Source of the DNA: Accumulibacter sp.
GTDB taxonomy: Bacteria > Pseudomonadota > Gammaproteobacteria > Burkholderiales > Rhodocyclaceae
Assembly: GCA_024235695.1 (NCBI GenBank)
Contig: JACKLX010000010.1
Location: 1-64,000 of the forward strand
Direction: 5' to 3'
Length of the DNA stretch: 64,000 bases
The notes under the pieces are model-generated. The model was not told where the DNA came from, did no database searches, and was given only the letters and a program-made list of their open reading frames with translations. The translations under genes were made by a program, and so were the position numbers. Position 1 is the stretch's first letter. Each line of letters opens with the position of its first letter. Of the stretch, positions 40,888 through 56,757 are shown in pieces.

Positions 40888-43485
40888 ATGTTCGACAACT
40901 TGCGAAAGTACGCTGCCGCCTACGCCGTGGCGGTCGGCGGCATCTTGCTGACCTGCCTGTCCTCGTGGAACGTGCGCGAAGAACTGGCGAGCAGCCACCT
41001 CAGGGAATTTCAGCGGGCGGCCAGTGACCGCATCGAATCCTTGCGCGCCTTTGTCGACCAGGGTCTCGACGCCCTGCTGGAGATCAGGGGCCTGCTCTAC
41101 GCCGCACAGGAAATCGATGAGGCCGAGTTCAGCGTCTTTGCCGATGCGATCCTGCAGCGTCGCCCCTATATCGTAAGTCTGCTCTGGGCGCCCGTGGCGG
41201 CCGCCCAACGACAGGCGGCATCGAAGCTGGTAGCGGGCAGCGCTCCGCCTGCCGCGGCAATTGCCGACGGCGCGGCAACGGCATCCGGGCCGCGTCGGCC
41301 GAGTCCGGTGACGCTTGCGGCATCGCGAGACGGCGCCGGGATAGCGACAGGCGTGGACCTGATCGCCACGGCTGATCTGGCTGAATTCTTCCAGCGCGCC
41401 GGCGACAGCGGCAAGATCGCGGTCAGCGGCCCGATGGCACTATTGCGACCCGGCAAGGAAGCCTTGTCGGTGATCTACGCCGTGCAACCGGTCTTCGCGT
41501 CGGGGGAAGCGCGTCGCTCTGAGGTGCGGGCCAAGCCGGGCGAGCGAGCCGAGCCGATCGGTTTTGTCGTTGGCGTCTACGACATCGAGGAACTGGTTCA
41601 CGTGGCGATCAGCATCCTCGAGCCGCGCGGTGTCGAGGTGCTCGTGCGTGACGAATCGGCTGGCGGCGAAGCGCAGTTCCTTCACTTCTACGCCAGCCGG
41701 CTCGAACCCGGCAGTGTCGCGACCGCTGCCGGCCTGCTGCCCGAACAGGACCAGGGGCAGCCACGGATGGTGGCCAGCATTCGCGTCGGCGACCGGAGCT
41801 GGTCGGTCACCTGCGTCGCCACGCATACCTTTCGTAGCGGTGAGGCGTTCAGCCGGGCACACTGGTCGGTTCTCGTCGGCGGATTCCTGTTTACCGCCTT
41901 GTTGAGCTTCTATCTGGTGCGCAGTCGCCGCGAGCTGGACAATCGAAGCCGGCTGGCACAGGCGATTTGCCAACGCGAAGAACTGCTTCGCCAACTCGCG
42001 GAAACGGTCGATGTCGTTTTCTGGGCAATCAACGCCGAGGCGACGCGGCTGGAGTATATCGGGCCAGCGTTCCGGCAGATTGCCGGCGACGATGCCGGCA
42101 TGGACAGTGCGGCGCCGTCGCTGCTGCTGGACGTTTTCGAGGCCGGCGATCGTTGCGCGCTGAGCGCGGCGATCGGCCGCCTGCAGGCCGGGGGAGGGCG
42201 TTTCACGGTCGTCCTGCCGGTGCGACAAGGTGCGCGGGAGCTGCGCTGGTTGCGGGTCTGCGGCTTCCCGGTGCACGAGTCCGGCGGCGCCCTGAGTCGC
42301 ATTGTCGGCTTCTGTGAGGACATCACCGAGCACAAGCTGGCCGAGGATGCGTTGCGCGATTCCGAAGCGAAGCTGCGGACGCTGTTCAACCATTCCCCGG
42401 ACCTGATCTTTACCGTTGATCGCCGAGCCAGCATCCTGCTCACCAACCGGCCACTGCCGTACCCGGTTGGCGGTGCCGGCGAGACGCGATCCGAGCTCAT
42501 CCTGCCGGTCGAGGTGCGTCAAGCCTACCTCGACAAGCTGCGCCAGGTCTTTGCCAACGGTCAGGTTGAGCATTGCCAGTACGCGGGCCCCGACGCCACC
42601 AGCTGGGAAGTGCGGATGGTGCCGATCAACTCGGCGACGGTGGCAGATACGGTGATGGCGGCCATGGTGGTGATCACCGACATCACCGAGAACCGGAAGC
42701 TGCAGTCGCAGGCGATCCGCAGCGCGCGGCTGGCGTCGCTCGGTGTACTGTCGGCTGGCATTGCCCACGAAATCGGCAACCCGACGCACGCGATCATGGC
42801 CAATGCGGCGTTGCTGGCCCGGATCTGGCACGATGCCTTGCCGATACTGAGCGAATATGAGCGCGAGCAGGGGGATTTTCTGCTGGCCGGCCTGAGCTTC
42901 GCGCAAGCGCGCGAAACCATTTCGCGTGGCATGGGCGATATCGGCGAAAACGCCAGGCGGATCCGCAAGATCATCGGCAATCTGAAGCATCTCGGCAAAC
43001 AGGATGGCGGGCATATGGACGAACTCGCCGACATCGGGAAGATTCTCGACGCCGTGGTGACGCTGCTCGACGCGCGCATTCGCCAACACACGGACGCCCT
43101 GACCCTGGATTTGCCGGCGGCACTGCCGGCGGTGCGAGGGAACGTTCAACAGCTCGAGCAGGTGTTCATCAATGTCATCGTCAATGCCCTGGAGTCGCTG
43201 CCGGACCACAGCTGTTCGGTCAAGGTATCGGCCAGGCTGGACAGCAGCGGCGAGCGAATCATCGTGCGCGTCAAGGATCAGGGTCAGGGGATTGCCGAGG
43301 ACGTCATGGCCCAGATCGGCGAACCGTTCTTCACCACCAAGGGCGACAGAGGCGGCACCGGCCTGGGACTGTCGATTTCGTCGTCAATCGTCGAAAGACA
43401 TGGCGGCGTGCTGCGCTTCGCGTCGAACAAGAAAATGGGGACGACGGTGAGCATTGAACTGCCGGTGATCAGGGAGGAGTCGTGA
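40888..43485 (+). CDS. CHASE-type sensor histidine kinase with PAS domains
   Basis: An 865-residue hybrid-free sensor kinase. A first membrane segment (YAAAYAVAVGGILLTCLSSW) and a second at ~residues 325-345 (WSVLVGGFLFTALLSFYLV) enclose a periplasmic CHASE domain. Two PAS-like regions follow (~365-490, ending in GFCEDITEHK, and ~500-610, ending in VITDITENRKL). The phosphorylated histidine is H627 in AGIAHEIGNPTHA; the ATPase has NVIVNALES, VKDQGQGI and GGTGLGLSIS. Its end overlaps the response regulator start (GTGA), so they form one two-component system. The CHASE ligand is unknown. Position next to the sigma-54 phosphate units suggests it senses phosphate, redox or carbon state. Confidence 0.9.
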   Translation: MFDNLRKYAAAYAVAVGGILLTCLSSWNVREELASSHLREFQRAASDRIESLRAFVDQGLDALLEIRGLLYAAQEIDEAEFSVFADAILQRRPYIVSLLWAPVAAAQRQAASKLVAGSAPPAAAIADGAATASGPRRPSPVTLAASRDGAGIATGVDLIATADLAEFFQRAGDSGKIAVSGPMALLRPGKEALSVIYAVQPVFASGEARRSEVRAKPGERAEPIGFVVGVYDIEELVHVAISILEPRGVEVLVRDESAGGEAQFLHFYASRLEPGSVATAAGLLPEQDQGQPRMVASIRVGDRSWSVTCVATHTFRSGEAFSRAHWSVLVGGFLFTALLSFYLVRSRRELDNRSRLAQAICQREELLRQLAETVDVVFWAINAEATRLEYIGPAFRQIAGDDAGMDSAAPSLLLDVFEAGDRCALSAAIGRLQAGGGRFTVVLPVRQGARELRWLRVCGFPVHESGGALSRIVGFCEDITEHKLAEDALRDSEAKLRTLFNHSPDLIFTVDRRASILLTNRPLPYPVGGAGETRSELILPVEVRQAYLDKLRQVFANGQVEHCQYAGPDATSWEVRMVPINSATVADTVMAAMVVITDITENRKLQSQAIRSARLASLGVLSAGIAHEIGNPTHAIMANAALLARIWHDALPILSEYEREQGDFLLAGLSFAQARETISRGMGDIGENARRIRKIIGNLKHLGKQDGGHMDELADIGKILDAVVTLLDARIRQHTDALTLDLPAALPAVRGNVQQLEQVFINVIVNALESLPDHSCSVKVSARLDSSGERIIVRVKDQGQGIAEDVMAQIGEPFFTTKGDRGGTGLGLSISSSIVERHGGVLRFASNKKMGTTVSIELPVIREES

Positions 43486-44912
43486 AAGAGAAATCCTTTG
43501 CCAGCCTGCCGGTCGTTCTGGTCGATGACGACCAGTCTGTTCTGCATGCCACGGCGGCCGTGCTGAACAGCGCCGGCGTGGCCAACGTCGAGCTGGTCAA
43601 CGACAGTCGCGAACTGCTGCCGGCGCTCGAGCGGCACGCGGCCAGCCTGATCCTTCTCGACCTTTTCATGCCGCATGTCACCGGCAACGAGCTGCTGCCG
43701 GAGATCGCCAGGCTTTATCCGGAGCTGCCGGTAATCGTCATGACCGCCGCTCAGGATATCGAGACGGCGGTACTGAGCATGAAGGAGGGCGCCTTCGACT
43801 ACCTCGTCAAACCGGTCGAGGAGAGCCGCCTGCTGGCGTCCGTTCGGCACGCCCTCGAGGTGCAGTCGCTACGTCGGCAGATGGGCGTTCTCAAGCATTA
43901 CCTGCTGTCGGACTGCCTGCAACACGGCGAAGCCTTCGCCGGCATCGTCACCAACAGCCGCAAGATGCGCGCCCTGTTTCAATACCTCGAGGCGGTTGCC
44001 GTTTCGGCCGAGCCGGTGTTGATCTCCGGCGAGACCGGTGCCGGCAAGGAGATGTTCGCGCATGCCTTGCACAAGCTCAGCGGCCTGACCGGACAGTTCG
44101 TCCAGGTCAATGTCGCCGGCCTTGATGACACGCTGTTCTCGGATACCCTGTTCGGCCATCGCAAAGGGGCCTATACCGGTGCCGACCAGAACCGGGCCGG
44201 GCTGATCTCGCAGGCTGCCGGCGGCACGCTGTTCCTCGACGAAATCGGCGACCTGTCGATGGCCTCGCAGGTCAAGCTGCTGCGCCTCTTGCAGGAACAC
44301 ACGTATTTTCCGCTGGGATCCGATGTGGCGCGTCCGAGCGACGCCCGTGTCGTCTGCGCGACCAACTGCCAGCTCGCCCAGATGATGCGCCAGAACCGGT
44401 TTCGTTCCGATCTCTTCTTTCGCCTCTCGGTGCACCAGGTCGAGGTGCCGCCGCTGCGCGAGCACAAGGAAGATATCCCGCTGTTGCTTCAACGCTTTCT
44501 CGACGAGGCCGCCGCGGCGATCAACAAGTCGGCACCCGAGCCATCCAACGAGCTGATCACGCTGCTCTCGAACTACCATTTTCCGGGCAACGTTCGCGAG
44601 TTGCGGGCGATGGTCTTCAACGCCATGGCCCTGCATCGTGGCGGTTCGGTGCTGGCCATGGAGAGCTTCCGCCAGGCGATTCAGAAACAGCAGAGAACGA
44701 ATTCCGATCAGCCGCTGGCGGCACCGTCCGACGGCTTGCCGGTGGTCATTCCCGGCCGTTTCCCGACCCTGGATGAGGTCGAAGAAGCGATGATCAGCGA
44801 AGCCCTGCGCCGTGCCAGGGGCAATCAGGGAGTCGCCGCGACGCTGCTCGGCCTTTCGCGTCCGGCGCTCAACAGACGCCTGGCGCGGCGGGCGACGCCA
44901 CCGGCTGCCTGA
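43482..44912 (+). CDS. NtrC-type sigma-54-dependent response regulator
   Basis: A 476-residue enhancer-binding protein. The receiver domain has VVLVDDDQSV, the phospho-acceptor D60 (LILLDLFMPH) and K110. The AAA+ domain has Walker A GETGAGKE (183-190), the sigma-54 contact loop GAYTGA (229-234, Tyr instead of the usual Phe) and Walker B GGTLFLDEIGD. The C-terminus is a Fis-type helix-turn-helix (RARGNQGVAATLLGLSRPAL). It starts with GTG inside the kinase stop. Three downstream units carry matching sigma-54 promoters and shared upstream half-sites, making this protein the obvious candidate activator (inference). Confidence 0.93.
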   Translation: MKEKSFASLPVVLVDDDQSVLHATAAVLNSAGVANVELVNDSRELLPALERHAASLILLDLFMPHVTGNELLPEIARLYPELPVIVMTAAQDIETAVLSMKEGAFDYLVKPVEESRLLASVRHALEVQSLRRQMGVLKHYLLSDCLQHGEAFAGIVTNSRKMRALFQYLEAVAVSAEPVLISGETGAGKEMFAHALHKLSGLTGQFVQVNVAGLDDTLFSDTLFGHRKGAYTGADQNRAGLISQAAGGTLFLDEIGDLSMASQVKLLRLLQEHTYFPLGSDVARPSDARVVCATNCQLAQMMRQNRFRSDLFFRLSVHQVEVPPLREHKEDIPLLLQRFLDEAAAAINKSAPEPSNELITLLSNYHFPGNVRELRAMVFNAMALHRGGSVLAMESFRQAIQKQQRTNSDQPLAAPSDGLPVVIPGRFPTLDEVEEAMISEALRRARGNQGVAATLLGLSRPALNRRLARRATPPAA

Positions 44913-45016
44913 GGCGGAGATCGGCCAGGCCGCTCACCGCTCCGTCGCGCATGCCAGCTTGCCGGTGCGCAGCGGCTTCGATGGCCTCTCGCATGGCGCT
45001 GAGCGGACGATCAGGC

Positions 45017-45136
45017 GGTGTAACTCGATGCCATTCCGGGCGTAAGCGCCAGCATGGCATGAGCTGCCCGCTTTAACTGGCCTGGGCGATCATTCGGCAT
45101 GACAAATCGCTGACGCTGTAAGCGTTTCGTTACACC
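45017..45136. promoter_or_regulatory. Upstream activator site pair A
   Basis: GGTGTAAC at 45017-45024 and its reverse complement GTTACACC at 45129-45136 span exactly 120 bases. The right site is also half of a better palindrome, TGTAA-N8-TTACA (45117-45134). The same arrangement occurs at 47757-47876 and 49708-49827. Probable binding sites for the NtrC-type regulator encoded just upstream (inference). Confidence 0.75.
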
Positions 45137-45215
45137 CCCACCTGCTTGTCGCACTTAATCCGTCATCGTCCGTCTGCCGAGCGATTGATCTGGATCCCGT
45201 TCGCCGCTTGCGCTC

Positions 45216-45231
45216 TGGCATACAAACTGCT
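45216..45231 (+). promoter_or_regulatory. Sigma-54 (-24/-12) promoter A
   Basis: TGGCATACAAACTGCT matches the consensus TGGCACGNNNNTTGCT with GG and GC ten bases apart as required. It begins 79 bases after activator site pair A and precedes the PiT gene at 45827. Confidence 0.8.
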
Positions 45232-45826
45232 TGGTCGAACCGCTCAGCGCCTTCTTGGTGTCGCCATGGCCGATTGCCGGCGGCGGCCCGATCGGTGACA
45301 GGCGAGCACGGGGTAGTCCAATTCCTGGGGGGTATGTGGATGGGGCAATGCGGGGTTCGCTCCTTGTCTGACGACGGGGCGCGACTGCAGGGGAAGCGCC
45401 GGGCGGCGCTGCGCCCTTACTCTGGCGCGCCCAGTCGGCCGGCAGTCGGCGGCCGCCGTAGTCGATACTTCGTTGCTCCGCTGCCGCGTCGCCGGCGCCG
45501 GCTTACCTGCCGCTGTTCGGCGTCGCAGGCGCGCGCGGGCCGCTGTAAGCGCTTTCCCGCAGGCCATTTCTCAGCGCTTGCTCGGCGAACCGCATCACAC
45601 GCCAGCGACCCGGCCCGGCGTCGCACAGCGTCGGTCGTCGTACGTCCGGCTGGTCGGCCGGGCAGCTCGATGCCGGCGCCCCGATGGTGAATGACGAGGA
45701 GGGTGCAGCCGAGCCGATACCGTTACCGACAATTCTTCAGCGAGATCGCGCCAGGCGCGCGCCGCGGTACGCCCATGAGCTTGCTCGCGACGCCTCAACA
45801 TACAACAACATTCTCAGGGTGGTTTG

Positions 45827-46867
45827 ATGAGCACATTATTGATATTGACGATCGCGACCGTTGTTATCGTCCTTTTCTTTGACTACACCAACGGTTTTCA
45901 CGATGCCGCGAACATCGTTGCGACGATCATCGCGTCGCGCGCGATGACCCCCATACAGGCCGTGATGATCGTCGGTACCTTCGAGTTTCTCGGGCCGCTG
46001 TTGGGAGGCACGGCCGTCGCCAATACCATCGGCAAATTCGTTACCCTGGGCGATGTCGCCGCCGTGCTGTCGCTGGCGATCCTGATCAGCGGCCTGATTG
46101 GCGCCATCGTCTGGAATCTGGCGACCTGGTATTTCGGCATTCCGTCGTCCTCGTCGCACGCCCTGGTCGGTGGCCTGATCGGCGCGGTCGTCGTTTCTGC
46201 CGGTCCGGACAACGTCGTCTGGGGATTCTCGCAACTGCTGCACGGTGAGATGACGGGCATCATGAAGGTTCTGGCGGCGCTGATCCTGTCGCCATTGATC
46301 GGCTTCTGGGTTGGTTTCCTGGTTCTCCGGCTGATGAACATCGTGCTCTTTGCCGCCAATCCTTCAGCGAATACCGGTCTGCGCCACGCGCAGTTCATCA
46401 CCGCCGCCGGACTGGCGTTCTCGCACGGCGCCAATGACGCGCAGAAGAGCATGGGGATGCTGACGCTGGCGCTGCTGCTCGGTGGCTTCATTCCGACCTT
46501 CGAGGTGCCCTTCTGGGTCATGCTCGCCTGCGCCGTAGCGATCACCCTGGGCATCCTGTCGGGTGGCTGGCGGATCGTGCGCACCCTTGGCTTCTCGATC
46601 TATCGCGTACGCCCGATTCACGCGCTGAGTTCGCAGCTGACGTCGGCGCTGGTGATTCTGACCGCCTCGGCGGTCGGCGCGCCGGTGTCGACCACGCACG
46701 TTGTCGGCACGTCGATCATGGGCATCGGCGCTTCCGAGCGGCCGCGAGCGGTACGCTGGAAGAAGGCCAAGGACATTGCCGTCACCTGGATGATCACCAT
46801 CCCGGGTGCGGCACTGGTTGCAATTCAGACATTCGCGCTCGTCAACCTCTTTATCGGAAAGGTATGA
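45827..46867 (+). CDS. pit: PiT family inorganic phosphate transporter
   Basis: A 346-residue PiT symporter. The signatures are FFDYTNGFHDAANIVATIIA near the N-terminus and FSHGANDAQKSMGMLTLAL in the second half, with IPSSSSHALVGGLIGA and GAPVSTTHVVGTSIMG. The ATG at 45827 follows AGGGTGGTTTG. It is translationally coupled to the following DUF47 gene (ATGA overlap). First gene behind sigma-54 promoter A. Confidence 0.94.
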   Translation: MSTLLILTIATVVIVLFFDYTNGFHDAANIVATIIASRAMTPIQAVMIVGTFEFLGPLLGGTAVANTIGKFVTLGDVAAVLSLAILISGLIGAIVWNLATWYFGIPSSSSHALVGGLIGAVVVSAGPDNVVWGFSQLLHGEMTGIMKVLAALILSPLIGFWVGFLVLRLMNIVLFAANPSANTGLRHAQFITAAGLAFSHGANDAQKSMGMLTLALLLGGFIPTFEVPFWVMLACAVAITLGILSGGWRIVRTLGFSIYRVRPIHALSSQLTSALVILTASAVGAPVSTTHVVGTSIMGIGASERPRAVRWKKAKDIAVTWMITIPGAALVAIQTFALVNLFIGKV

Positions 46868-47526
46868 ACATGTTGGACACCAGCTCTGTACGCCCCTCTT
46901 TCTCTCGTCGGATCCTGCATCGGGTATTTCCGAAGGTTCCCGATTTCTTTGCTCTGCTCGCCGAACAGAGCGCGCATGTGGACGTCAGCGCCGGCCTGCT
47001 GGTCGAGTACATGGGTGCCGACAGCGCGCAGGCGGCAAAGAAGATCGTCGAGGCCGAGTACGAGGGCGATCGGCAAAAGGTCCGCAACCTGACGTTGCTC
47101 AACGAAGCCTTCTCGACGCCAATCGACCGTGAAGATCTGCACCGGGCGATCATCAATCTCGACGAGATCATCAATAGCTGCAAGTCCGTTGTCGTCGAAA
47201 TGGACACCGACGTTCTCGCCCTGAAACCCGACAAGGCCTGCCTGGAAATGGCGGTTTACCTCAAGGCGGGAGTCGCTGCCGTGGCTGCCGGCTATGGCCG
47301 TCTGGGGAGCGACCCGAAGTTGGGGCGCGCCGATGCCGAGAAGGCGGACAAGGCGGTTCGGCAACTGACCAGGACGCACCGGTGCGCTCTCGCCGAGCTG
47401 TTTCAGAACGACGATTTCCATTACATCTTCAGGCGCAAGGAAATCTACATGCAGCTGAGTCGTGCCGGTGATCGCCTGAACATCTGCAACAGCACGCTGC
47501 TCGATATCGTCGTCAAACTCTGCTGA
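46864..47526 (+). CDS. DUF47 family (PhoU-like) protein
   Basis: A 220-residue helical DUF47 protein, clearly more diverged than the 23461/25308 pair. Blocks are VFPKVPDFFALLAEQSAHVDV, EAEYEGDRQKVRNLTLLNEA, FSTPIDREDLHRAIINLDEI and HYIFRRKEIYMQLSRAGDRL. Its start overlaps the PiT stop, so stoichiometric synthesis and a regulatory role for that transporter are likely. An ATG two codons downstream is an equally possible start. Confidence 0.9.
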   Translation: MNMLDTSSVRPSFSRRILHRVFPKVPDFFALLAEQSAHVDVSAGLLVEYMGADSAQAAKKIVEAEYEGDRQKVRNLTLLNEAFSTPIDREDLHRAIINLDEIINSCKSVVVEMDTDVLALKPDKACLEMAVYLKAGVAAVAAGYGRLGSDPKLGRADAEKADKAVRQLTRTHRCALAELFQNDDFHYIFRRKEIYMQLSRAGDRLNICNSTLLDIVVKLC

Positions 47527-47756
47527 ACGCCTGCGCCGCAGGTCCTCGCGGCTGGCCCTGAGGGTCTGCCGCGGGGGCCTTCAGGTGCTTGCCCGTTGGG
47601 CACGGCTCCTGGCGCCTCGTGCGGCCGGCCGCGGGCGGCACGCGCGGCCTGCCGCCCGCTCGATGCGCCGGCGATCGGCCGCTCTCGTCGCTGCTGGCGC
47701 GGCCGTCGCGTGGATCGCCACGGTCGTCGCCGACAACTGCCAGAGGCACGGCTCAC

Positions 47757-47876
47757 GGTGTTACGTGCCATCACCCCTTGTGCACCGCCGCCATTCTCGC
47801 AAGTCCTTGTTCGATTGGACTCATCCTGCCGTCCACCGGCCATTGCCGTGACCGCCACTGTCCATTTTGTTACACC
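47757..47876. promoter_or_regulatory. Upstream activator site pair B
   Basis: GGTGTTAC (one mismatch to GGTGTAAC) at 47757-47764 and GTTACACC at 47869-47876, again spanning exactly 120 bases. The right site is preceded by CATTTT, matching the CGTTTC and CGTTTT seen before the right sites A and C. Confidence 0.7.
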
Positions 47877-47953
47877 GGCAACGGGCTTCGCCGTGACCCG
47901 CGGGGTACCGCTAGGGGCGTGATTTTCAATGGCGTTTGGCGCCACCGATGGAC

Positions 47954-47969
47954 TGGCGCAGCTCTTGCT
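47954..47969 (+). promoter_or_regulatory. Sigma-54 (-24/-12) promoter B
   Basis: TGGCGCAGCTCTTGCT: a near-perfect -24/-12 element with correct GG-GC spacing, 77 bases after activator site pair B and ~107 bases before the CHAD start codon. Confidence 0.82.
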
Positions 47970-48075
47970 TGATTCGAGACAGCACCGATCCCGGTAAGTG
48001 TGTTGGCGGATGCCGTTCGCCTCGGGATCGGTTGCTGTGGCTGAAGTGTCAGTCCAATTTTCAGGAGCTTGCCAG

Positions 48076-49569
48076 ATGCACGGCGAAAGAGACCCAAATC
48101 TTTCAGAACTCAATCTTTCCCTGACCCCGGGGGTGGCCGGTCGCCTGGCCAGGCACCCGCTGCTGGTCGACAGCGCCGCGATTCGCGAGAGGGTCATCAA
48201 TATCTACTACGACACGCCGGATCTGCGCCTGCAACGCGAGCGCGTCGTGCTGCACTACCACAAGAGGGGCTCGGCCTGGTGGTGCTCGGTCAGCCGGGCG
48301 GCAATCGGCGCCCGGCGAGGCGCCGGGCAGCGTGAATGGGAGGCGGTGGGCGAACCGGGTGATTTTGACTTTTCGCACGTCGGCGACGGCGGCTTGCGGC
48401 AGTGGTTGGAAGCCTTGCGCAAGGAACTTCAACCCGCGTTCACGACCAGCTTCACCCGTAACGCCTGGACGCTTGAGCCGCGTGCGGGTGTGCGCATCGA
48501 GGTGGCGCTCGACCGTGGCTGGATCGTCGGCGAGGGCCGACGGCAGGCCATTTGCGAGGTCGGACTGGGGCTCATTTCGGGATCCGCCGGGGACCTGTTC
48601 TCCACCGCCAGCGAACTGCAGACCGATCTGTCTCTTCACCCGGAAGTCAGCAGCAAGCTGCAGCGCGGTTATCAGGCGCTGACCGACGACGCACTGCAGG
48701 CGGTCAAGGCGCTGCCGCTGCAGACGAATGCCGGCATGACGGCCATCGACGCATTTCGCACGATCGCGCTGGCATGCCAGAAACACCTGCAGGACAACGA
48801 GCATGGTGTTTGCGAAAGCGACGATCCCGAGTTCGTGCACCAGGCGCGGGTGGCGATTCGCCGTCTGCGCTCGGCGATCCGCGTCTGGCGGCCGTTGCTC
48901 CCGGAGGGTTTCGTGAGTCGTTTCGATCCGCTGTGGCAGTCGCTGGCCGGGCGACTCGGTGAAGCGCGCAACTGGGACGTATTCTCGACGGAGACCGTGC
49001 CGACAATCGCGGCAGCCTTCCCGAACGGTGTCGAAAGCCACCGCTTGTCCGCCTACGCGCAGCGGCGCTGCGCGATCAATCGCGAGGCTGCTCGCAATGA
49101 GTTCCGGTCGGTCGACTATTCGCGCCTGCTGCTCGAATTCACGGCTGCCGTCCTGGCGCTTCGCGACGACGAGAACCTTCGCCTGGACGCCTTCGCGCCG
49201 GCCTGTCTCGACAAGCGGGCCAGGCAGGTCAGCCAGTTGGCGGCGGAGGCGCTGGCCGGCGATGCGGCGGCCCGCCATCGCCTGCGTGTCGCCTACAAGA
49301 GACTGCGCTACGCGCTGGAATTCTTCGCCCCACTGTTTCCGGGTGAACTGCTGCGCAACTACCACGTCTCGGCCAGCGGCCTGCAGGAGATGCTCGGGCG
49401 GCTCAACGACCTGGCCGTTGCTGCGCAACTCAGCGAAGAAGCGCTCCCGGGCGAGGCGGGAGCGGCCATCCGCCACTGGCTCGAAAGCCAGAGTGAACGC
49501 CTGTTGCCGGAGCTTCGCGGCTGGTTGCACGACTTTGAACAGCACCCGGCGCCATGGCGGAACCAGTAA
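48076..49569 (+). CDS. CYTH-like/CHAD domain protein (polyphosphate-associated)
   Basis: A 497-residue protein with an N-terminal CYTH-like (triphosphate tunnel) domain (~1-200) and a C-terminal CHAD domain (~215-490). CHAD shows the conserved histidine/arginine helices FVHQARVAIRRLRSAIRVWR and HRLRVAYKRLRYALEFF. CHAD domains bind polyphosphate and bring proteins to polyphosphate granules (known for the family). The CYTH catalytic opening ExExK is degenerate here (E11-L-N13-L-S15), so triphosphatase activity may be lost. AGGAG lies 8 bases before the ATG. It is the only gene between promoters B and C, so it is a single-gene unit sharing regulation with the PiT operons. Confidence 0.88.
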   Translation: MHGERDPNLSELNLSLTPGVAGRLARHPLLVDSAAIRERVINIYYDTPDLRLQRERVVLHYHKRGSAWWCSVSRAAIGARRGAGQREWEAVGEPGDFDFSHVGDGGLRQWLEALRKELQPAFTTSFTRNAWTLEPRAGVRIEVALDRGWIVGEGRRQAICEVGLGLISGSAGDLFSTASELQTDLSLHPEVSSKLQRGYQALTDDALQAVKALPLQTNAGMTAIDAFRTIALACQKHLQDNEHGVCESDDPEFVHQARVAIRRLRSAIRVWRPLLPEGFVSRFDPLWQSLAGRLGEARNWDVFSTETVPTIAAAFPNGVESHRLSAYAQRRCAINREAARNEFRSVDYSRLLLEFTAAVLALRDDENLRLDAFAPACLDKRARQVSQLAAEALAGDAAARHRLRVAYKRLRYALEFFAPLFPGELLRNYHVSASGLQEMLGRLNDLAVAAQLSEEALPGEAGAAIRHWLESQSERLLPELRGWLHDFEQHPAPWRNQ

Positions 49570-49707
49570 ACGCGGATTGACTGCTGCGGCAGGCAGGCCG
49601 GCCGGCGCGGCGGCCGCGTCGGGCGGACGCGGCGGCACTTCGCGTCACGTGCGGGGCGTCGACGAGGCGTGCTGCGGCGCTCGCCGCTCGCCGACCATTG
49701 TCGTGCG

Positions 49708-49827
49708 GGTGTAACGCTTTGTCCTTGTACGCCATTCCCTTCAAGGCGACTCAAGACGCTGTTTCCGGTCGTGAATCGCGCATCTCGGCGAACGCTGCCG
49801 GGTAGCGGGCCACCGTTTTGTTACACC
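49708..49827. promoter_or_regulatory. Upstream activator site pair C
   Basis: GGTGTAAC at 49708-49715 and GTTACACC at 49820-49827, exactly 120 bases outer span as in pairs A and B. The right site is preceded by CGTTTT. Confidence 0.75.
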
Positions 49828-49876
49828 CCATGGCGGCCCTGGTCTGGCGCGTTGGCTGGCGAGCATGTGCATGATT

Positions 49877-49892
49877 CGGCACGAGAACTGCT
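49877..49892 (+). promoter_or_regulatory. Possible second sigma-54 element
   Basis: CGGCACGAGAACTGCT keeps GG, CACG and TGCT with correct spacing but lacks the first T. It lies 30 bases upstream of promoter C. It may be a weak tandem promoter, a decoy or chance. Confidence 0.35.
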
Positions 49893-49906
49893 TTGCGATG
49901 CGCGTC

Positions 49907-49922
49907 TGGCACGACCTGTGCT
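49907..49922 (+). promoter_or_regulatory. Sigma-54 (-24/-12) promoter C
   Basis: TGGCACGACCTGTGCT: TGGCACG is the full consensus -24 block, and TGC/GC falls at the right spacing. It begins 79 bases after activator site pair C, exactly as at promoter A. Confidence 0.85.
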
Positions 49923-50193
49923 TAATTCGCTTCGGACAAACGCCTGGCCGCGGCAGCGGCTGTCGTCCGCGATTGCGCGCGTGAGCCTGCAAGGGGGGTG
50001 GTTCGTTCGCCTGGTTTGCCGGCATGGAACGGCGCCGTCACGAGCTGTCGCGGTGCGTCCAGGCTTCGACCGACACCGCCTTCGTCCCGGACAGCGACCG
50101 GGGCGACGTCATCTGGACCACGGGGTCAGCGATTTAACCCGGTAATTGTCATCAACTACGTGGGCATTGCCCCACGTGTGAAAGGAGAACTTC

Positions 50194-50853
50194 ATGGACA
50201 AGAGCAAGCTGCGTCTATTCCACACCACCAAGGAGGTGGAGACGCACTTCGATTCGTTTCTGGACACGGTCTCCGAGGGCGGCATCTCGTTCCGCGGCGG
50301 TGTCGGGGCGTATCTGGATTCCGCCGGCAATGGCGACATGGCGGCCAAGCTGAAGCAGATCAACGAACTGGAGCACAGAGGGGACGAATTGCGCCGCCAG
50401 GTCGAGCACGAACTCTATACCTTGGCGCTGATCCCCGACTTTCGCGGCGACGTGCTGAGTCTGCTGGAGGATCTGGACTGCCTGCTCAATGTCATGGAAG
50501 AGACGATGGGGTCGCTCGACATCGAAAGGCCCGCTTTTCCTCCGGAGCTGCATGCCGACCTCAAACAGCTGGCCGAAAGCGTTTCGCTGGCGGTGGAGAG
50601 TACGGTGCTGGCGTCCCGCGCCTTCCTGCGCGACATCCAGTCGGTTCGCGATCACCTGCACAAGGTGATGTTCTATGAAAAGGACGCGGACCGCCAATCG
50701 GAGAAGTTGAAACGCGCCGTCTTCGCTTCTTCCCTGCCGCTGGCCGAGAAGTTGCACCTGCGCCGCTTCATTGACGCGATCGACCATATCGCTGATGAAT
50801 CCGAGGACGTCGCCGACTGGCTGGCGATCTACACCATCAAGCGTTTGGACTAA
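50194..50853 (+). CDS. DUF47 family (PhoU-like) protein
   Basis: A 219-residue DUF47/TIGR00153-type helical protein. Blocks are GGISFRGGVGAYLDSAGNGD, INELEHRGDELRRQVEHELY, DFRGDVLSLLEDLDCLLNVM and DAIDHIADESEDVADWLAIY; the E/D-rich pairs resemble PhoU metal clusters. GGAG precedes the ATG. It is followed after 21 bases by the PiT gene; this unit has the order DUF47-PiT, reversed relative to 45827-47526. Confidence 0.92.
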   Translation: MDKSKLRLFHTTKEVETHFDSFLDTVSEGGISFRGGVGAYLDSAGNGDMAAKLKQINELEHRGDELRRQVEHELYTLALIPDFRGDVLSLLEDLDCLLNVMEETMGSLDIERPAFPPELHADLKQLAESVSLAVESTVLASRAFLRDIQSVRDHLHKVMFYEKDADRQSEKLKRAVFASSLPLAEKLHLRRFIDAIDHIADESEDVADWLAIYTIKRLD

Positions 50854-50874
50854 GGTCAGGGAGCAAGGCAAGCC

Positions 50875-52362
50875 ATGGATCCTACGATATTCCTTTACCT
50901 GTCGAGCGGTTTGTTCCTGGGGTGGTCGCTGGGAGCCAACGATGCGGCCAACGTCTTTGGTACGGCGGTCGCTTCGAGGATGGTCAAATTCCGGACGGCT
51001 GCGATCATCCTCACGATCGGAGTGATCCTCGGGGCGATCGTCAGCGGCGCCGGAGCGGCGCATACCCTGTCCAAGCTCGGCGCGATCAACGCGCTGGCGG
51101 GTGCCTTCATGGTGGCCTTCTCGGCAGCGGCCGTCGTCGCCTGGATGACCATCGTCGGCCTGCCGGTGTCCACTACCCAGGCCGTCGTCGGGGCGATCAT
51201 CGGCTGGAACCTGTTCACCGGTTCGGTTACCGACTACACCGTCTTCAAGACCATTTGTGCCACCTGGATCGCCAGTCCGGTGCTCACCGGCTTCTTCAGT
51301 TACTTCATCTACAAGGGAGTGATGAAGTTGCTCGAGAAGTCGCGGATTCACATCATCCGGCTGGATGCCATGACCCGTATCGGTCTGGTCATCGCCGGCG
51401 CGTTGGGCTCCTACTCGCTGGGCGCCAACAACATCGCCAACGTGATGGGCGTGTTCATTGGCGCGAATCCGTTCAGCGATCTGCACGCCGGCCTGTTCGA
51501 GTTCTCCGGTCTGCAGCAGCTGTTCCTGCTCGGTGGCGTGGCCATCGCGGTCGGCGTCTTCAGCTACGCCAAGAGAGTGATGCTTACGGTGGGAACGCAA
51601 ATCGCCCCGCTGACGCCGGTCGGTGCCTTCGTCGTGATCATCTCGACCTCACTGGTTCTCTTCCTCTTCGCCTCGGAAGGCCTGGAGTTTGCGTTGGCGT
51701 CGGTAGGCCTGCCGACCATCCCGCTGGTGCCGGTCTCGAGCTCGCAGGCGGTAGTCGGTGGAGTGATCGGCATCGGGCTGATCAAGAACTCGCGGAACAT
51801 CAAGTGGAGCATCGTTGGCCGCATTGCCGTGGCCTGGATTCAGACCCCGATCGTGGCGGCGCTGGTCTGCTACGTCTTTCTTTTCTTCCTGCAAAACGTT
51901 TTCGGCCAGACGGTCTACAACCCGGTGGAATACCGTCTTTCGGAGCAGGTAGTGGTCCATCACGGCGACGCGGTCGACGCCCAGGCGCTGTCTGGGGTGA
52001 TCGGCAAGAGCTTCGAGACTTCGGGTCAGCTCAAGAGCGCAATCGACAAGGCTCTGCCAGATCTGGATTTCAAGACCGAACTGAAGCTTGTCGACGACTC
52101 CCTGGTGGAAGAAATCACGGTTGATCCCGCCAAGTTCCAGGCTCTGGAAAAGCTGCGAGTGATCGAGCCCGAGCGCCTGGCCGCGCTGCGTACGCTCGGC
52201 GGCAGGACCTTCACTTACCGCTGGGAACTGGTTGAAGCCCTTGCCGAAGCGGATCCCGAGTGGAAGTTCAGGGAGAAAACGGTTCTCAACAAGCCGCACA
52301 ACAAGGAGATCCAGAAAAACCTCGACCTGGTGATGGACGCCTACGTCGCCAAGATGAAGTAG
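50875..52362 (+). CDS. pit: PiT family phosphate transporter with C-terminal soluble extension
   Basis: A 495-residue PiT-type carrier. The first signature is SLGANDAANVFGTAVASRMV, the second YSLGANNIANVMGVFIGANP, with LPVSTTQAVVGAIIGWNLF and VSSSQAVVGGVIGIGL. After the last membrane segment (AALVCYVFLFFLQNVFG, ~residue 343) it carries ~150 extra soluble residues (VYNPVEYRLSEQVVVHHGDA, then an acidic/helical part ending VMDAYVAKMK) that ordinary PiT proteins lack. The extension may be a regulatory or docking domain. It belongs to a different PiT branch from the other two. Confidence 0.92.
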   Translation: MDPTIFLYLSSGLFLGWSLGANDAANVFGTAVASRMVKFRTAAIILTIGVILGAIVSGAGAAHTLSKLGAINALAGAFMVAFSAAAVVAWMTIVGLPVSTTQAVVGAIIGWNLFTGSVTDYTVFKTICATWIASPVLTGFFSYFIYKGVMKLLEKSRIHIIRLDAMTRIGLVIAGALGSYSLGANNIANVMGVFIGANPFSDLHAGLFEFSGLQQLFLLGGVAIAVGVFSYAKRVMLTVGTQIAPLTPVGAFVVIISTSLVLFLFASEGLEFALASVGLPTIPLVPVSSSQAVVGGVIGIGLIKNSRNIKWSIVGRIAVAWIQTPIVAALVCYVFLFFLQNVFGQTVYNPVEYRLSEQVVVHHGDAVDAQALSGVIGKSFETSGQLKSAIDKALPDLDFKTELKLVDDSLVEEITVDPAKFQALEKLRVIEPERLAALRTLGGRTFTYRWELVEALAEADPEWKFREKTVLNKPHNKEIQKNLDLVMDAYVAKMK

Positions 52363-52384
52363 GCAGGCGCTGAGGAGCGAAGCA

Positions 52385-53240
52385 ATGCGCGGTGTGTCTC
52401 TTGCCACAACGAGCGTGGAACGTTCGGCGGGAAGGCTGGCCGACACGGCGGCCGGCCGATTCGGGGCGTTGGCGGAACCGCTCGCTCGCGACGACGCGGC
52501 GCCGCTGGCTGTAAGCGACTGGTGTCCGCAGGCAGTTGCAGCTTGGGGCAATGACACCGTAGTTGACGTCGTGGCGGCGCCGCCGGAAGCTGCGCCGGCG
52601 TCGTCGGGCAGACGCAAGATGGCCCTGGAACTGGTGCAGCAGGCGCGGCAGATCGGTTTGTCCTTCGCCTTCGTCGCGACCGACGGCGCCTACCGGCACC
52701 TGCCGTGGCTGCTTGGAGAACTGGACGATGCCGGGGAAACCTTTCTCGCCGAGATGCATCCCGACCGCGCCGTCTATCTGGACGATCCGGTGCATGCCGC
52801 AGCGGACGAGTCGCTGACGAGGGTTCGCGCGTCCTTGCGCTTGCGTACGACGGTGGCGCCGACTTCGCTGGTCGCCTGGATGTGTGCGCAACCGGCGAGG
52901 CAATGGGCCCGTTTGTCGATCGGTGACGGCGACACGAGCAGGGGGAGAGGAGACTATCTCACCCGGCGCGTCTGGATCTGGGATGGCAAGTCGCCTGCGG
53001 CCCGTCATTGGCACCTCCTGGTGCTTCGTGAGGTGTACGGGAAGGCGCTCAAGTTCTGCCTGTCGAATGCCGCAGCCACGGCTTCCCTGCGCGATCTGGC
53101 GGAAATGCGAGGCCTGGCGATGGCGTCGAGTAGACCAGCGAGGCCGCCACGAGGGCGTGCGGCATGGGCGTGGTCATGAGCCGAGCAAGATAGCGATTGG
53201 CGGCAATGGTGGCGCTGGCCAACGGCCGCCGGCAGGTGAG
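52385..53240 (+). pseudogene. DDE transposase remnant (IS701/DDE_5-like)
   Basis: An open frame of 264 codons whose middle resembles a DDE-type transposase: RKMALELVQQARQIGLSFAF, VATDGAYRHLPWLLGELDDA, GETFLAEMHPDRAVYLDDP and later LSNAAATASLRDLAEM. The expected RYWVERAFxDAKSE helix with the last acidic residue is missing, and faint similarity continues in other frames to ~53240. The first ~75 codons are not transposase-like and follow a good GAGGAG site, so this may be a chimaera of an older gene start and an IS fragment. Not expected to be active. Confidence 0.55.
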
Positions 53241-53356
53241 CTGATCAACCACGGTCGATTGGCGGTTTTTCTCGCGGCTCTGGCGGTTGCCGACAAGGGG
53301 TGGCTCCGCGGCGAGCGATGGGGCGCAAGTTCCCCTCAACATAGGGGTTTGTCTTC

Positions 53357-54073
53357 GTGGATGGACAAGTGCACGGGGCTCCGGCCCCGGCAAACGTGAG
53401 GTCGATCGAAAGCGATCTGGACCATTTTCTCGATGCGGCAGTGGCCGCTACCGAGATCTTCAGGGTCGCCGTGGCGGCTTACCTCAGCGGTGGCCAGAAA
53501 GGGCACGCGTGGCAGTTGGCCCGGCAGATCGACGAGCAGCTGCGCACTGTGGACGACCTGCAACAGCGGTTCGAAACCGGCATGCGCAGGCAGCATGTCG
53601 TTGGTGGAACATTTCCGGAACTGCTCGAGCCCTTGGCCGGCGTCACCCGTTTGCTCCGCGACATGCGTCGCCAGATCAGCGGCTTTGCCGTCGAGTCGGG
53701 CTTCTCCGGAGCAGCGTCCGAGGTTTCCGTGCATCTTGTCGCCGATCTTCAACAATTGACCGAAGAGGTTTGTTCGGCGGTTGATGAACTGATCGAGGAT
53801 TGTCGTCCATGTGTGCTGCTGTGGAATCCACCCGCATCCGCTGATGCAGCGCTGGGTGTCGGCTGGTACGAGAGCCGGGCGGACCGGCTCTCGACGAGGC
53901 TGATCAAGCAGATTCTCCAGGACGATGCGCTGGGCTTTGAAGCGCAGCTGCGCGTGGCGCGGCTGGTCGAGGAAATCGATCGCCTCGCGGATTACGCAGA
54001 AAACGTTTGCGTCGAGGTGCGGGTCGGCCGCATGATCCGCCCGACGGTTCTCGCCAGTGCCGATTCGCGCTGA
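53357..54073 (+). CDS. Diverged DUF47/PhoU-like protein
   Basis: A 238-residue helical protein resembling DUF47: SIESDLDHFLDAAVAATEIF, GHAWQLARQIDEQLRTVDDL, a central LQQLTEEVCSAVDELIED helix, then YESRADRLSTRLIKQILQDD and LVEEIDRLADYAENVCVEV (the last like the family's DxIxxxADxAED helix). The start is unsure: GTG at 53357 gives the full frame, while GTG at 53369 and 53397 are alternatives with no better ribosome-binding site. It has no PiT partner of its own; the next gene is the SulP transporter. Confidence 0.65.
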   Translation: MDGQVHGAPAPANVRSIESDLDHFLDAAVAATEIFRVAVAAYLSGGQKGHAWQLARQIDEQLRTVDDLQQRFETGMRRQHVVGGTFPELLEPLAGVTRLLRDMRRQISGFAVESGFSGAASEVSVHLVADLQQLTEEVCSAVDELIEDCRPCVLLWNPPASADAALGVGWYESRADRLSTRLIKQILQDDALGFEAQLRVARLVEEIDRLADYAENVCVEVRVGRMIRPTVLASADSR

Positions 54074-54257
54074 TTTTTGAACCGGCACGCCCCCTCGGGG
54101 CGGTGCTTTGCTGCCCGTGGTCGTGGATCGGGCACGGGGCTTGGCGGGTCATTCCTGAACCGTGCAGCGCGCGACAAACGGCTGGCGGGTGGTGATAACG
54201 AGCGGCATTCGCTCGAGCAATCAAAGTAGTCCGGGCGTGTCGTCCGGACGGCGTTCG

Positions 54258-54297
54258 ATAGCCCTGTTGCAGACCGGCTGGCCTGCAACAGGGCTAT
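54258..54297 (+). other. Perfect 15-bp inverted repeat (hairpin) in the SulP leader
   Basis: ATAGCCCTGTTGCAG (54258-54272) is perfectly repeated inverted at 54283-54297, with a 10-base loop. It lies just upstream of the SulP ribosome-binding site (54314-54319). No T-run follows, so it is not a standard terminator. It could be an operator palindrome or an RNA hairpin controlling SulP. Confidence 0.7.
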
Positions 54298-54328
54298 GTT
54301 CTGCCTACAAGACGGGAGGCACGTGCTC

Positions 54329-56542
54329 GTGGAACTGGCATTGAATATCAAGAACGACAAGCTTGTCGGCGATTTCTGGGGTGGTCTGGCGTCGATGCTG
54401 GTCGCGCTGCCTTCGGCAATCGCTTTCGGCGTCACCATCTACGCCGCCATCGGCCCCGAATACGCGGGCCTCGGGGCGCTGGCCGGGATTCTCGGGACGA
54501 CGGCGCTCGGCCTGGTCGCCCCGACGCTGGGTGGCACCAATCGGCTGATCACGGCACCGTGCGCGCCGGCGGCAGCGGTATGCTCGGCGTTTGCCATCGA
54601 ACTGGTGCAGCACGGCGTCCAGCCGGCTTTCATCGTGCTGATGCTGACCGCCCTTGGGCTGGTCTGCGGGATCGTGCAGGTGTTGCTCGGCTTCATGGGC
54701 GTCGGAGGGCTGATCAAGTACATTCCGTTCCCGGTGGTCAGTGGCTACCTCAGTGGCGTCGGCCTGATCATCATCGGCAGCCAGATCCCGAAATTCATGG
54801 GGGTGATGGACGGCACGTCATGGTGGCGGGTGTTGATGGCGCCCGATCTGTGGCACTGGCAAAGCGCGCTGATCGGTGCCGTGACGATTGCCGTGATGCT
54901 CGGCGCACCGCGGCTGACGCGCCTGGTGCCGGCGGCGATCCTCGGCCTGCTGGCGGGCGTCATCACCTATTTCGCGATCGCCTTCTCGGTTGACGGGTCG
55001 CTGCTGGTGATGGAAGGCAACGGGCTGATCATCGGGCCGCTCGGCGGCACGGCTTCGAGCATGGTGGACGCGATTACCGGTCGCTGGCAGGAGATCGGCG
55101 AGCTCAAGCTCAGCCAGATCGGCGCGCTGCTTGGCACGGCGCTGACCCTCGGGGTACTGCTGTCGATCGACACGCTCAAGACCTGCGTCGTCCTCGACAC
55201 CTTGACGCGCAGCCGGCACGATTCAAATCGCGAGTTGATTGCCCAGGGTTCGGGAAACATCGCTTCGGCGTGCGTTGGCGGCATGGCGGGAGCGGGGCAG
55301 ATGGGGGCAACGCTGGTCAACCTGACGAGCGGTGGCCAGACGCGCCTGTCCGGGGTCATCGAGGGCGTGCTCTCGTTGATCACGTTTCTCGCGCTCGGGG
55401 CGTTCATTGCCTGGATTCCGGTAGCTTCTCTGGCCGGGATCCTGATCATCGTCGGTATTCGGATGATCGACCGGCACAGCGTGCATCTGCTGGAGTCTCC
55501 CTGGACCCGGCTCGACTTCTTCGTGGTTGCCGCTGTGGTCGCCGTGGCGCTCGGCTACAGCCTGATCGCCGCCTCGGGAGCCGGCATTGTCCTGGCCATG
55601 CTGCTGTTCATCCGCGAACAATTGAGCAGCACGGTCATTCGTCACAAGGCCGAGGGTGGCAACCGGTTTTCCAAGCGCCTGCGCTTGAGTCGGGAAATGG
55701 AAGTGCTCGAGAAAGAGGGCGCCCAGAGCGTCATCTTCGAACTGCAGGGGAGCCTTTTCTTCGGTACCAAGAGCCAGCTTTACGCGGCCCTCGAAAGGGA
55801 ACTCGAAACGCGTAAGTACGTGGTGCTCGACATGCGGCGCGTCCAGTCGGTGGACGTCACGGCCGTGCATCTGCTCGAGCAGGTCAGGGACTCGTTGATC
55901 GAACGCGACGCTTACCTGATCTTCAGCAACCTGTCACACGCCCTGCCGAATGGCCGGAACATCGGCGAGTTGTTCGACCAGATGGAACTGACGACGCTGA
56001 CCGAACATGTCAAGGTGTTTCCCGAACTGGACGACGCGGTCGAGTGGATTGAAGAGCAGATCCTGGGTGAGAACCTGGCGCAGGAGGCCGAGGTCACTGC
56101 GCTGGAACTTGCAGATATCGAGCTTTTCAAGGATCACAAGGAAGAGACGCTGATCGACCTCGAGGCTTGCCTGGCGCGACGATCGGTCGAGAAGGACGGC
56201 AAGGTGTATTCGTTTGGCGACCCCGGCAATGAGCTGTTCCTGATTCGCAAGGGGGCGGTTCGCATCACGTTGCCCAGTGGCGACGGTGTGCCCGCCCATC
56301 ACGCGCTGACCTACGGCCGCGGCGATTTTTTTGGCGGCATGGCTTTCCTCTCGCAAATGACGCGCTTCAACGACGCCACGGCACTCGAGGATACCGAACT
56401 CTACGTGTTGCAGCGCGAACAGTTCGAAAAGCTTCGTGAGGAACACAAGCGCCTCGCTTGTCACCTGGTCGAGGCGGTCGCCAAGGTGCTGGCCTTGCGA
56501 CTGCGCTACTCGGACAAGGAACTGATGGCCATGCAGGACTAG
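54329..56542 (+). CDS. SulP family anion transporter with STAS and cyclic-nucleotide-binding domains
   Basis: A 737-residue protein. Residues ~15-400 are a SulP membrane domain (LPSAIAFGVTIYAAIGPEYA, LGGTNRLITAPCAPAAAVCS, FPVVSGYLSGVGLIIIGSQI). A STAS domain follows (~425-545; VLDMRRVQSVDVTAVHLLEQ), then a cNMP-binding/Crp-like domain (~600-720; VYSFGDPGNELFLIRKGAVR, GRGDFFGGMAFLSQ). SulP proteins carry sulfate, bicarbonate or other anions. The GTG at 54329 has GGGAGG 9 bases upstream; an ATG at 54296 lies in the hairpin and lacks a site. The cNMP fold suggests gating by a nucleotide signal. Confidence 0.88.
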   Translation: MELALNIKNDKLVGDFWGGLASMLVALPSAIAFGVTIYAAIGPEYAGLGALAGILGTTALGLVAPTLGGTNRLITAPCAPAAAVCSAFAIELVQHGVQPAFIVLMLTALGLVCGIVQVLLGFMGVGGLIKYIPFPVVSGYLSGVGLIIIGSQIPKFMGVMDGTSWWRVLMAPDLWHWQSALIGAVTIAVMLGAPRLTRLVPAAILGLLAGVITYFAIAFSVDGSLLVMEGNGLIIGPLGGTASSMVDAITGRWQEIGELKLSQIGALLGTALTLGVLLSIDTLKTCVVLDTLTRSRHDSNRELIAQGSGNIASACVGGMAGAGQMGATLVNLTSGGQTRLSGVIEGVLSLITFLALGAFIAWIPVASLAGILIIVGIRMIDRHSVHLLESPWTRLDFFVVAAVVAVALGYSLIAASGAGIVLAMLLFIREQLSSTVIRHKAEGGNRFSKRLRLSREMEVLEKEGAQSVIFELQGSLFFGTKSQLYAALERELETRKYVVLDMRRVQSVDVTAVHLLEQVRDSLIERDAYLIFSNLSHALPNGRNIGELFDQMELTTLTEHVKVFPELDDAVEWIEEQILGENLAQEAEVTALELADIELFKDHKEETLIDLEACLARRSVEKDGKVYSFGDPGNELFLIRKGAVRITLPSGDGVPAHHALTYGRGDFFGGMAFLSQMTRFNDATALEDTELYVLQREQFEKLREEHKRLACHLVEAVAKVLALRLRYSDKELMAMQD

Positions 56543-56757
56543 CTCGCGAGAGATCGGTTTCGCTACACTGTTGGCGCCGAGCAGAGAGCTTATCCTGGCG
56601 CCAAGAAGAGTTGGCGCACTGGCAGAGATGCGCGGAAGCAGCGTTGGGGAATGAGGTGGGCGATGCAGGGAGCAGGCCGCCTGCCGGGTCGAACGATTCC
56701 GGCGGGCAATCCGGAGAGTGAAGTGGTCCCCTGAGTCAAGACAAATATCGACCCAGT

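Follow-up and report, generated by a model that had tools for sequence, protein, structure and literature searches.

The stretch of DNA analysed here, referred to as the window, comprises 64 000 nucleotides from Accumulibacter sp. (GenBank assembly GCA_024235695.1, 3.83 Mb in 32 contigs; contig JACKLX010000010.1, positions 1 to 64 000). On one strand, from 40888 to 52362, it encodes a CHASE/PAS histidine kinase, an NtrC-type response regulator (RR), a PiT-DUF47 pair, a CYTH-CHAD protein and a DUF47-PiT pair, followed beyond 52362 by a protein without a Pfam match and a SulP carrier (domain calls on window proteins are from Pfam; regulator equivalog and integration host factor (IHF) calls are from NCBIfam). 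The subject of this report is three modules, A, B and C, that precede PiT-DUF47, CHAD and DUF47-PiT, respectively, each consisting of an inverted pair of short sites, the putative enhancer, and a sigma-54-type -24/-12 element. Their predicted elements are as follows.

45017..45024, plus strand: unit A left enhancer site GGTGTAAC, sequence match
45129..45136, minus strand: unit A right enhancer site (GTTACACC on the plus strand), sequence match
45178..45190, minus strand: unit A weak IHF-like site in the spacer, 2 mismatches, ~5 bp off the usual register
45216..45231, plus strand: unit A -24/-12 element TGGCATACAAACTGCT, sequence match
47757..47764, plus strand: unit B left enhancer site GGTGTTAC, 1 mismatch
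47800..47812, minus strand: unit B mid-pair IHF-like site, in register with 2 mismatches
47869..47876, minus strand: unit B right enhancer site (GTTACACC on the plus strand), sequence match
47912..47924, minus strand: unit B IHF-like site in the spacer, 2 mismatches, in register
47954..47969, plus strand: unit B -24/-12 element TGGCGCAGCTCTTGCT, sequence match
49708..49715, plus strand: unit C left enhancer site GGTGTAAC, sequence match
49752..49764, minus strand: unit C mid-pair IHF-like site, in register with 1 mismatch
49820..49827, minus strand: unit C right enhancer site (GTTACACC on the plus strand), sequence match
49864..49876, minus strand: unit C IHF-like site in the spacer, 2 mismatches, in register
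49907..49922, plus strand: unit C -24/-12 element TGGCACGACCTGTGCT, sequence match

Three promoter modules in the window

The initial annotation reported three inverted pairs of identical span before these genes, and their coordinates, sequences and spacings all check: the pair spans 120 bp in each unit, the left site of unit B carries one mismatch, and the gap between the right site and the -24/-12 element is 79 (A), 77 (B) and 79 (C) bp. The exact pair with a gap of 90–120 bp occurs twice in the window and in none of 100 dinucleotide shuffles; taken singly, sites with at most one mismatch occur at chance frequency (19 compared with 17.8 expected), so that the pairing is the significant feature.

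The presence of three copies within 5 kb might suggest chance or a recent duplication of one promoter. This explanation is hardly credible given the shuffling result and the lack of similarity outside the elements, and it is contradicted by the conservation of the modules through the genus and in Gammaproteobacteria; the earlier claim that the modules are not recent duplicates thus holds. The three blocks cannot be aligned (gapless identity inside them is 0.21–0.32, against a random mean of 0.27 and a 95th percentile of 0.36), which bears out the part of that annotation that described unlike filler, but the filler is not featureless, as IHF-like elements occupy near-fixed places in it genus-wide.

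Phosphate genes often belong to the Pho regulon, and repression loops can arise between distant operators in inverted orientation, which gives some plausibility to ordinary control by PhoB and sigma-70, with the pairs serving something else, for example, a repressor loop. We consider this very improbable. A Pho box (scored with a consensus) does not rise above background in the three intergenic regions, where the best matches have 6–7 mismatches of 18, against 5 for the best match window-wide, and the near-fixed distance to the -24/-12 element would stay unexplained. According to an Accumulibacter metatranscriptome report, pst is relied on at low phosphate and pit at high phosphate (PMC12604563), a pattern that fits separate control of pit and speaks against joint control by PhoB.

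Conservation of the modules across the genus

The genus set consists of 28 genomes, in which modules were counted in the regions fetched around the RR and around pattern matches rather than in whole genomes; a full module was required to have at most two mismatches in the two sites, plus a -24/-12 element. By this count, 57 full modules are spread over 26 of the 28 genomes, with a span of 117–120 bp and a gap to the -24 element of 75–79 bp in 53 of the 57 and 85–88 bp in 4. As expected for enhancer sites, which usually stand some 100–200 bp away, both lie upstream of the promoter, the right site mostly ending 75–79 bp before the -24 element and the left site starting ~119 bp further up. The genes behind them, by genome count, are CHAD (17), PiT-DUF47 (14; DUF47 alone, 3), DUF47-PiT (7) and SulP (3, none of them the window's genome; in these three, SulP is the first regulon gene behind the module).

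Behind 13 modules in 12 other genomes, an unnamed gene of ~255 codons comes first, in all 13 cases (split in G010), followed, ~0.9–1.2 kb downstream of the module, by a relative (44–53%) of the protein encoded at 53357 in the window; the unnamed gene has no relative in the window. Its product possibly represents a new family of phosphate/polyphosphate proteins. Three such proteins of ~255–290 aa that were tested have no Pfam match (L055:10107-10874; L043:9088-9951, minus strand; L202:4811-5692; L numbers denote loci and G numbers genomes throughout).

Searched genome-wide in the same 28 genomes, the pattern GGTGYAAC-N98-106-GTTRCACC yields 44 pairs in 26 genomes, against a single match for the control, the same pattern read backwards; 41 of the 44 pairs stand before regulon genes. 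The right site combined with TGGCA-N7-TGCT is matched 50 times in 25 genomes, compared with no control matches, 48 times before regulon genes and twice before the glutamine synthetase gene glnA (named from the protein start), which is a place where an NtrC site would be expected. Thus, of the checks proposed with the original observation, inspection of orthologous upstream regions across the genus finds that they mostly carry the pair, and the genome-wide scan finds the same spacing mainly at the regulon.

Recurrence outside the genus

The survey of RR homologues covered 80 named loci among the matches listed. At least eight gammaproteobacterial loci with RR homologues at 59–65% carry the pair (L140, L141, L144, L145, L146, L148, L151 and L189), with a span of 115–120 bp in these eight and a -24/-12 element after 73–78 bp. 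In all six with enough DNA (L140, L144, L145, L148, L151 and L189), a Na/Pi cotransporter gene (PF02690) lies behind the module, preceded in L140, L144 and L145 by a short open reading frame (ORF) of 102–104 codons. In L140 and L145, the left site is the dyad GGTGTAAC-N10-GTTACACC. L142, from a Lamellibrachia endosymbiont, has a variant pair with a span of 127 bp and a -24/-12 element, facing a 100-codon ORF without a Pfam match. The neighbouring kinase is of the CHASE-PAS type in all four gammaproteobacterial loci tested (L142, L145, L148 and L189, three of them among the eight module loci). The proposal of coordinated sigma-54 control of PiT carriers and CHAD is, therefore, backed both by conservation in the genus and by recurrence before another phosphate transporter.

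A tree built from 63 RR proteins places the rows that bear the pair (nine are labelled so, L142 with its span of 127 bp among them) together with Accumulibacter in one set of 19, with support of 92/90, just short of the tree program's own star. Among 58 listed non-Accumulibacter loci, those with the residues PA in the recognition helix number 8 with the pair and 9 without, and those with other or unread residues 0 with and 41 without (Fisher p 1.3e-5); as the rows share ancestry and the 41 include many distant paralogues, we take this as weak support.

In Magnetococcales, the RR stands beside PiT, DUF47 or SulP in at least five loci (L154, L158, L159, L160 and L167), four of which (L154, L158, L159 and L167) have a -24-like element before DUF47b with a TTTCACC or TGCACC half-site 72–83 bp upstream; L185, from Chromatiaceae, combines an RR homologue with a -24-like element before SulP. 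The regular expressions for these loci were chosen after looking, and most other genes there showed nothing; possibly, to judge from the sequences, they represent the same regulon acting through a different site. Large polyphosphate inclusions have been reported from magnetotactic cocci (PMC8786505); the location of the Magnetococcales homologues beside PiT and SulP would fit this if the same strains are concerned.

The RR search in a class-level sample of 369 genomes found it in five, including that of the window. In the other four, G278 has the pair and is probably the same genome as L151, hence non-independent; in L256, too little DNA follows the RR; in L257, the pair is weak (2 mismatches), the -24/-12 element lies on the other strand and no ORF of at least 120 aa is present within 2.5 kb behind; and L258 has the RR and no pair. 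A looser pair pattern (position 5 left free and no more than TGG demanded) was rejected as uninformative for this sample, its matches (38 of 369 genomes) being no commoner than those of the reversed control (~43 of 369).

The adjoining two-component system and the putative target genes

The genes of the cluster are listed below.

40888..43485, plus strand: sensor histidine kinase, 865 aa; CHASE, PAS, HisKA (below cut-off) and HATPase_c (Pfam)
43482..44912, plus strand: NtrC-type RR, 476 aa, the proposed activator; receiver, sigma-54 AAA+ and Fis-type helix-turn-helix (HTH) domains (PF00072, PF00158, PF02954)
45827..46867, plus strand: PiT phosphate carrier (PHO4, PF01384; Pfam)
46864..47526, plus strand: DUF47/PhoU-like partner (PF01865; Pfam)
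48076..49569, plus strand: CYTH-CHAD protein (PF05235; Pfam)
50194..50853, plus strand: DUF47/PhoU-like protein (Pfam)
50875..52362, plus strand: second PiT carrier (PF01384; Pfam)
53357..54073, plus strand: protein without a Pfam match; DUF47-like label from context only
54296..56542, plus strand: SulP anion transporter with STAS and cNMP-binding domains (Pfam)

The kinase gene overlaps the RR start by 4 bp, and its orthologues adjoining the RR in genus loci show 61–77% identity. The AAA+ domain of the RR carries a GAYTGA loop, of the GAFTGA type. The RR orthologue is present in 27 of the 28 genus genomes, intact in 23, split or interrupted in three (G011, G015 and G022) and cut by a contig end in one (G003). 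The exception, G017 (~90% complete), has no RR orthologue (best match 38%), no pair, no site-plus-promoter match and no match to this PiT at 1e-60. An RpoN gene is found in 26 of the 28, including the window's own genome; the two without it are 87–88% complete.

The initial annotation named no regulator; these sequence comparisons make the adjoining two-component system a strong candidate for the regulator of the modules. Likewise, there is strong indirect evidence that the RR reads the two sites, because the modules occur with this RR clade in two bacterial groups and were not found in the genome that lacks the RR.

As an alternative, the modules could be real sigma-54 promoters served by another enhancer-binding protein, for example, NtrC, which would put phosphate genes under nitrogen control. 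NtrC sites share GGTGCA/TGCACC, which resembles the module sites, the site-plus-promoter scan also caught glnA in two genomes, the genomes hold further NtrC-family regulators, and in three genomes the modules remain beside a broken-looking RR. Conversely, no conserved TGCACC is found just outside the left site, the 14 preceding positions having <0.5 bit each; the genes behind the modules are of the phosphate/polyphosphate type; and the modules lie beside this RR clade in two bacterial groups, none being found in the genome without the RR. On balance, we regard control by NtrC or a similar protein as improbable. Identification of the RR as NtrC itself was rejected: its best NCBIfam matches, AtoC (329 of 714 bits) and NtrC (328 of 558.6 bits), both fall far under the equivalog cut-offs, and there is no conserved outer half-site.

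Several side observations concern these genes. The complete genome CP059264.1 (L130), titled Dechloromonas sp. SSD3, encodes an Accumulibacter-type RR (86%) with the pair; the record title may be wrong or the RR locus transferred. The loci with a damaged RR, G011:C6, G015:C44 and G022:C36 (L064, L065 and L068), are without PiT at the RR locus, the damage being sequencing error or decay. The leader between the unit A promoter and PiT (45232-45826, ~590 bases; 612 bp from the -24 element to the ATG) has no Rfam match at the gathering threshold, in a scan of 43000-57000, and so corresponds to no known riboswitch in that collection. A further PiT homologue in the window (24155-25090) is 38% identical to the first PiT, and L049:9096-12799 (minus strand) contains PiT-DUF47 twice in tandem, the second copy showing 73% to the PiT of the window and the other 92%. 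The ORF at 52385-53179, after the second PiT, has homologues (50–54%) in the same place in L045 and L064, and its sole Pfam match is sub-threshold and transposase-like.

IHF-like elements within the modules

The promoter alignment comprises 55 of the 57 genus promoters, after removal of one artefact and one duplicate. It gives extended sites, left GGTGTAACGTTTCG and right (reverse strand) GGTGYAACAAAATG, in which the first 8 bases are mostly fixed by the search. IHF-like elements were sought with a degenerate consensus at up to one mismatch, with dinucleotide shuffles as the null. On one strand, they occur between the paired sites in 28 of the 55 promoters (shuffles 3.2, max 9) and between the right site and the -24 element in 29 of the 55 (shuffles 2.0, max 5), and 25 of 30 mid-pair and 27 of 29 spacer matches lie within 3–4 bp of a common place. 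The opposite strand has no clear excess (5 mid-pair and 1 spacer promoters compared with 2.9 and 1.5). At the places predicted from the genus, the eight listed gammaproteobacterial promoters have 3 mid-pair and 5 spacer elements, against ~0.05 (max 2) in 2000 shuffles. The window's genome encodes both IHF alpha and beta (NCBIfam equivalogs above cut-off), along with RpoN. The mid-pair element starts ~43 bp from the left end of the ~119-bp pair, and a bend there would, by the geometry of IHF, fall near the middle of the pair. As a set, then, the genus and gammaproteobacterial promoters and the IHF genes match the picture of IHF-assisted promoters; in the window, the match is clear only in part.

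Instead of IHF sites, the elements could be AT-rich flexible DNA or further regulator contacts. This reading, which we deem unlikely without dismissing it, draws on the degenerate consensus, on the one-mismatch cut, which about half of the promoters fail to reach, and on unit A, which has no site in register. It accounts poorly for the near-fixed strand and position of the elements, for their enrichment above dinucleotide shuffles, and for their appearance at the genus-predicted places in 3 and 5 of the 8 gammaproteobacterial promoters of bacteria outside the genus, with both IHF genes present in the genome of the window.

Interpretation of the modules

Taken together, the observations suggest that each module is a sigma-54 promoter, that the two-site enhancer common to all three serves the adjoining NtrC-type RR and its partner CHASE/PAS kinase, and that the modules define a phosphate/polyphosphate regulon apart from PhoB, a reading to which we assign a probability of roughly 0.8.

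The observations that weigh against it can be grouped by kind. Some pairs stand apart from the regulon: 3 of the 44 genome-wide pairs (G006:C151, one in G010 and one in G026) have neither a -24/-12 match nor a regulon gene behind, those of G010 and G026 sitting where the related genome L049 has CHAD; outside the genus, the exact pair occurs in 1 of 33 genomes (G050), without other module features. Some modules are incomplete: five genomes (G014, G016, G023, G025 and G027) have 3 mismatches in the left site before PiT, which counts as degenerate, with the right site and the -24/-12 element retained, and the PiT promoter of G007 has no recognisable -24/-12 element although the RR is intact, this genome having the pair before 53357-like and SulP genes with an off-consensus -24 element. 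Unit A has no IHF-like site in register, and the 55 aligned promoters come from related genomes and are non-independent. In other cases the pair is missing: a second PiT type (72–73%), located elsewhere in G003, G009, G011 and G012, is accompanied by no pair within the flanks fetched, so that not every PiT is under the module, and the pair is absent near 6 of the 14 listed non-Accumulibacter RR loci that have PA residues and no less than 500 bp of sequence after the RR, namely, four Magnetococcales, one short contig (L147) and L142 with its variant. Finally, the RR is split or interrupted in G011, G015 and G022 while the modules remain, which may reflect sequencing error or service of the modules by another activator.

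In the proposed mechanism, the kinase would sense a probably periplasmic cue at its CHASE domain and phosphorylate the RR, as the domains suggest. RR dimers would bind the two inverted GGTGYAAC sites, which are observed ~119 bp end to end. IHF, for which the candidate sites have statistical support, would bend the DNA between them and could join the dimers for assembly of the AAA+ ring, and a second IHF bend, between enhancer and promoter, could deliver the ring to the promoter. There, the ring would remodel the sigma-54 polymerase at -24/-12, in line with the observed elements, GAYTGA loop and rpoN gene. Judging from gene content, the output would be joint expression of the PiT carriers, their DUF47 partners, CHAD and, in some species, SulP. 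CHAD has been reported to bind polyphosphate.

A broader conjecture, on which we would not bet either way, is that the CHASE-kinase/NtrC-type system arose long ago as a portable control of phosphate storage and bulk flux. Carriers unrelated to one another (PiT in Accumulibacter and, where the sites have diverged, in Magnetococcales; the Na/Pi cotransporter in Gammaproteobacteria) would have come under it via an enhancer folded midway by IHF, with two sites about ten helical turns apart, and it would govern the polyphosphate-accumulating lifestyle independently of PhoB.

Significance and comparison with known systems

Accumulibacter drives biological phosphorus removal via Pit-linked phosphate release and uptake. 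For the control of Pit, the present analysis puts forward a kinase with its regulator, the coordinates of the predicted promoters and a small set of probable target genes. That the module recurs in distant bacteria ahead of an unrelated phosphate transporter points to a broader way of controlling phosphate that has not yet been described, and a double enhancer that holds an IHF-like site at its middle is a variation on sigma-54 enhancers that lends itself to testing. No published description of a sigma-54 phosphate regulon was found in Accumulibacter or the wider sigma-54/phosphate literature, in a search that covered few subscription papers, and no paper was found, in the portions available, that names a dedicated regulator of the Accumulibacter Pit genes. 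The regulon is not described in the accessible parts of PMC3162934, PMC5193443 and PMC12316311, phosphate terms do not occur in PMC4641369, and in the passages available from PMC6446978 the motif dealt with is that of FNR, rpoN serving as a reference gene.

The Pho regulon (PhoR-PhoB) is similar in the two-component control of phosphate uptake, but here the regulator is NtrC-type rather than OmpR-type, sigma-54 replaces sigma-70, and the genes are PiT, Na/Pi and CHAD rather than pst, with no Pho box found in the three intergenic regions. Nitrogen-responsive regulators reportedly take part in E. coli polyphosphate synthesis (Bowlin 2022, known by title only), a system that resembles the present one in tying nitrogen/sigma-54-type regulators to polyphosphate. 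The IHF-assisted sigma-54 promoters of nifH, pspA and Pu likewise have an IHF site between enhancer and -24/-12 element; here, a second IHF-like site lies about midway between two enhancer sites. NtrC-family two-component regulators with sigma-54 promoters (NtrC-glnA, DctD, AtoC and ZraR) share the receiver-AAA+-Fis HTH architecture, the GAFTGA-type loop, distant enhancer sites and the -24/-12 promoter. In contrast to these systems, the targets here are phosphate carriers and a CHAD protein, and an IHF-like site is present between the enhancer sites as well as below them; the sites are ~100–110 bp apart, compared with ~32 bp at glnA, and read GGTGYAAC instead of the NtrC dyad TGCACC-N5-GGTGCA. 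The predicted system is thus ordinary in kind, NtrC-type and sigma-54-dependent, with a target that is apparently undescribed and an enhancer layout that appears unusual.

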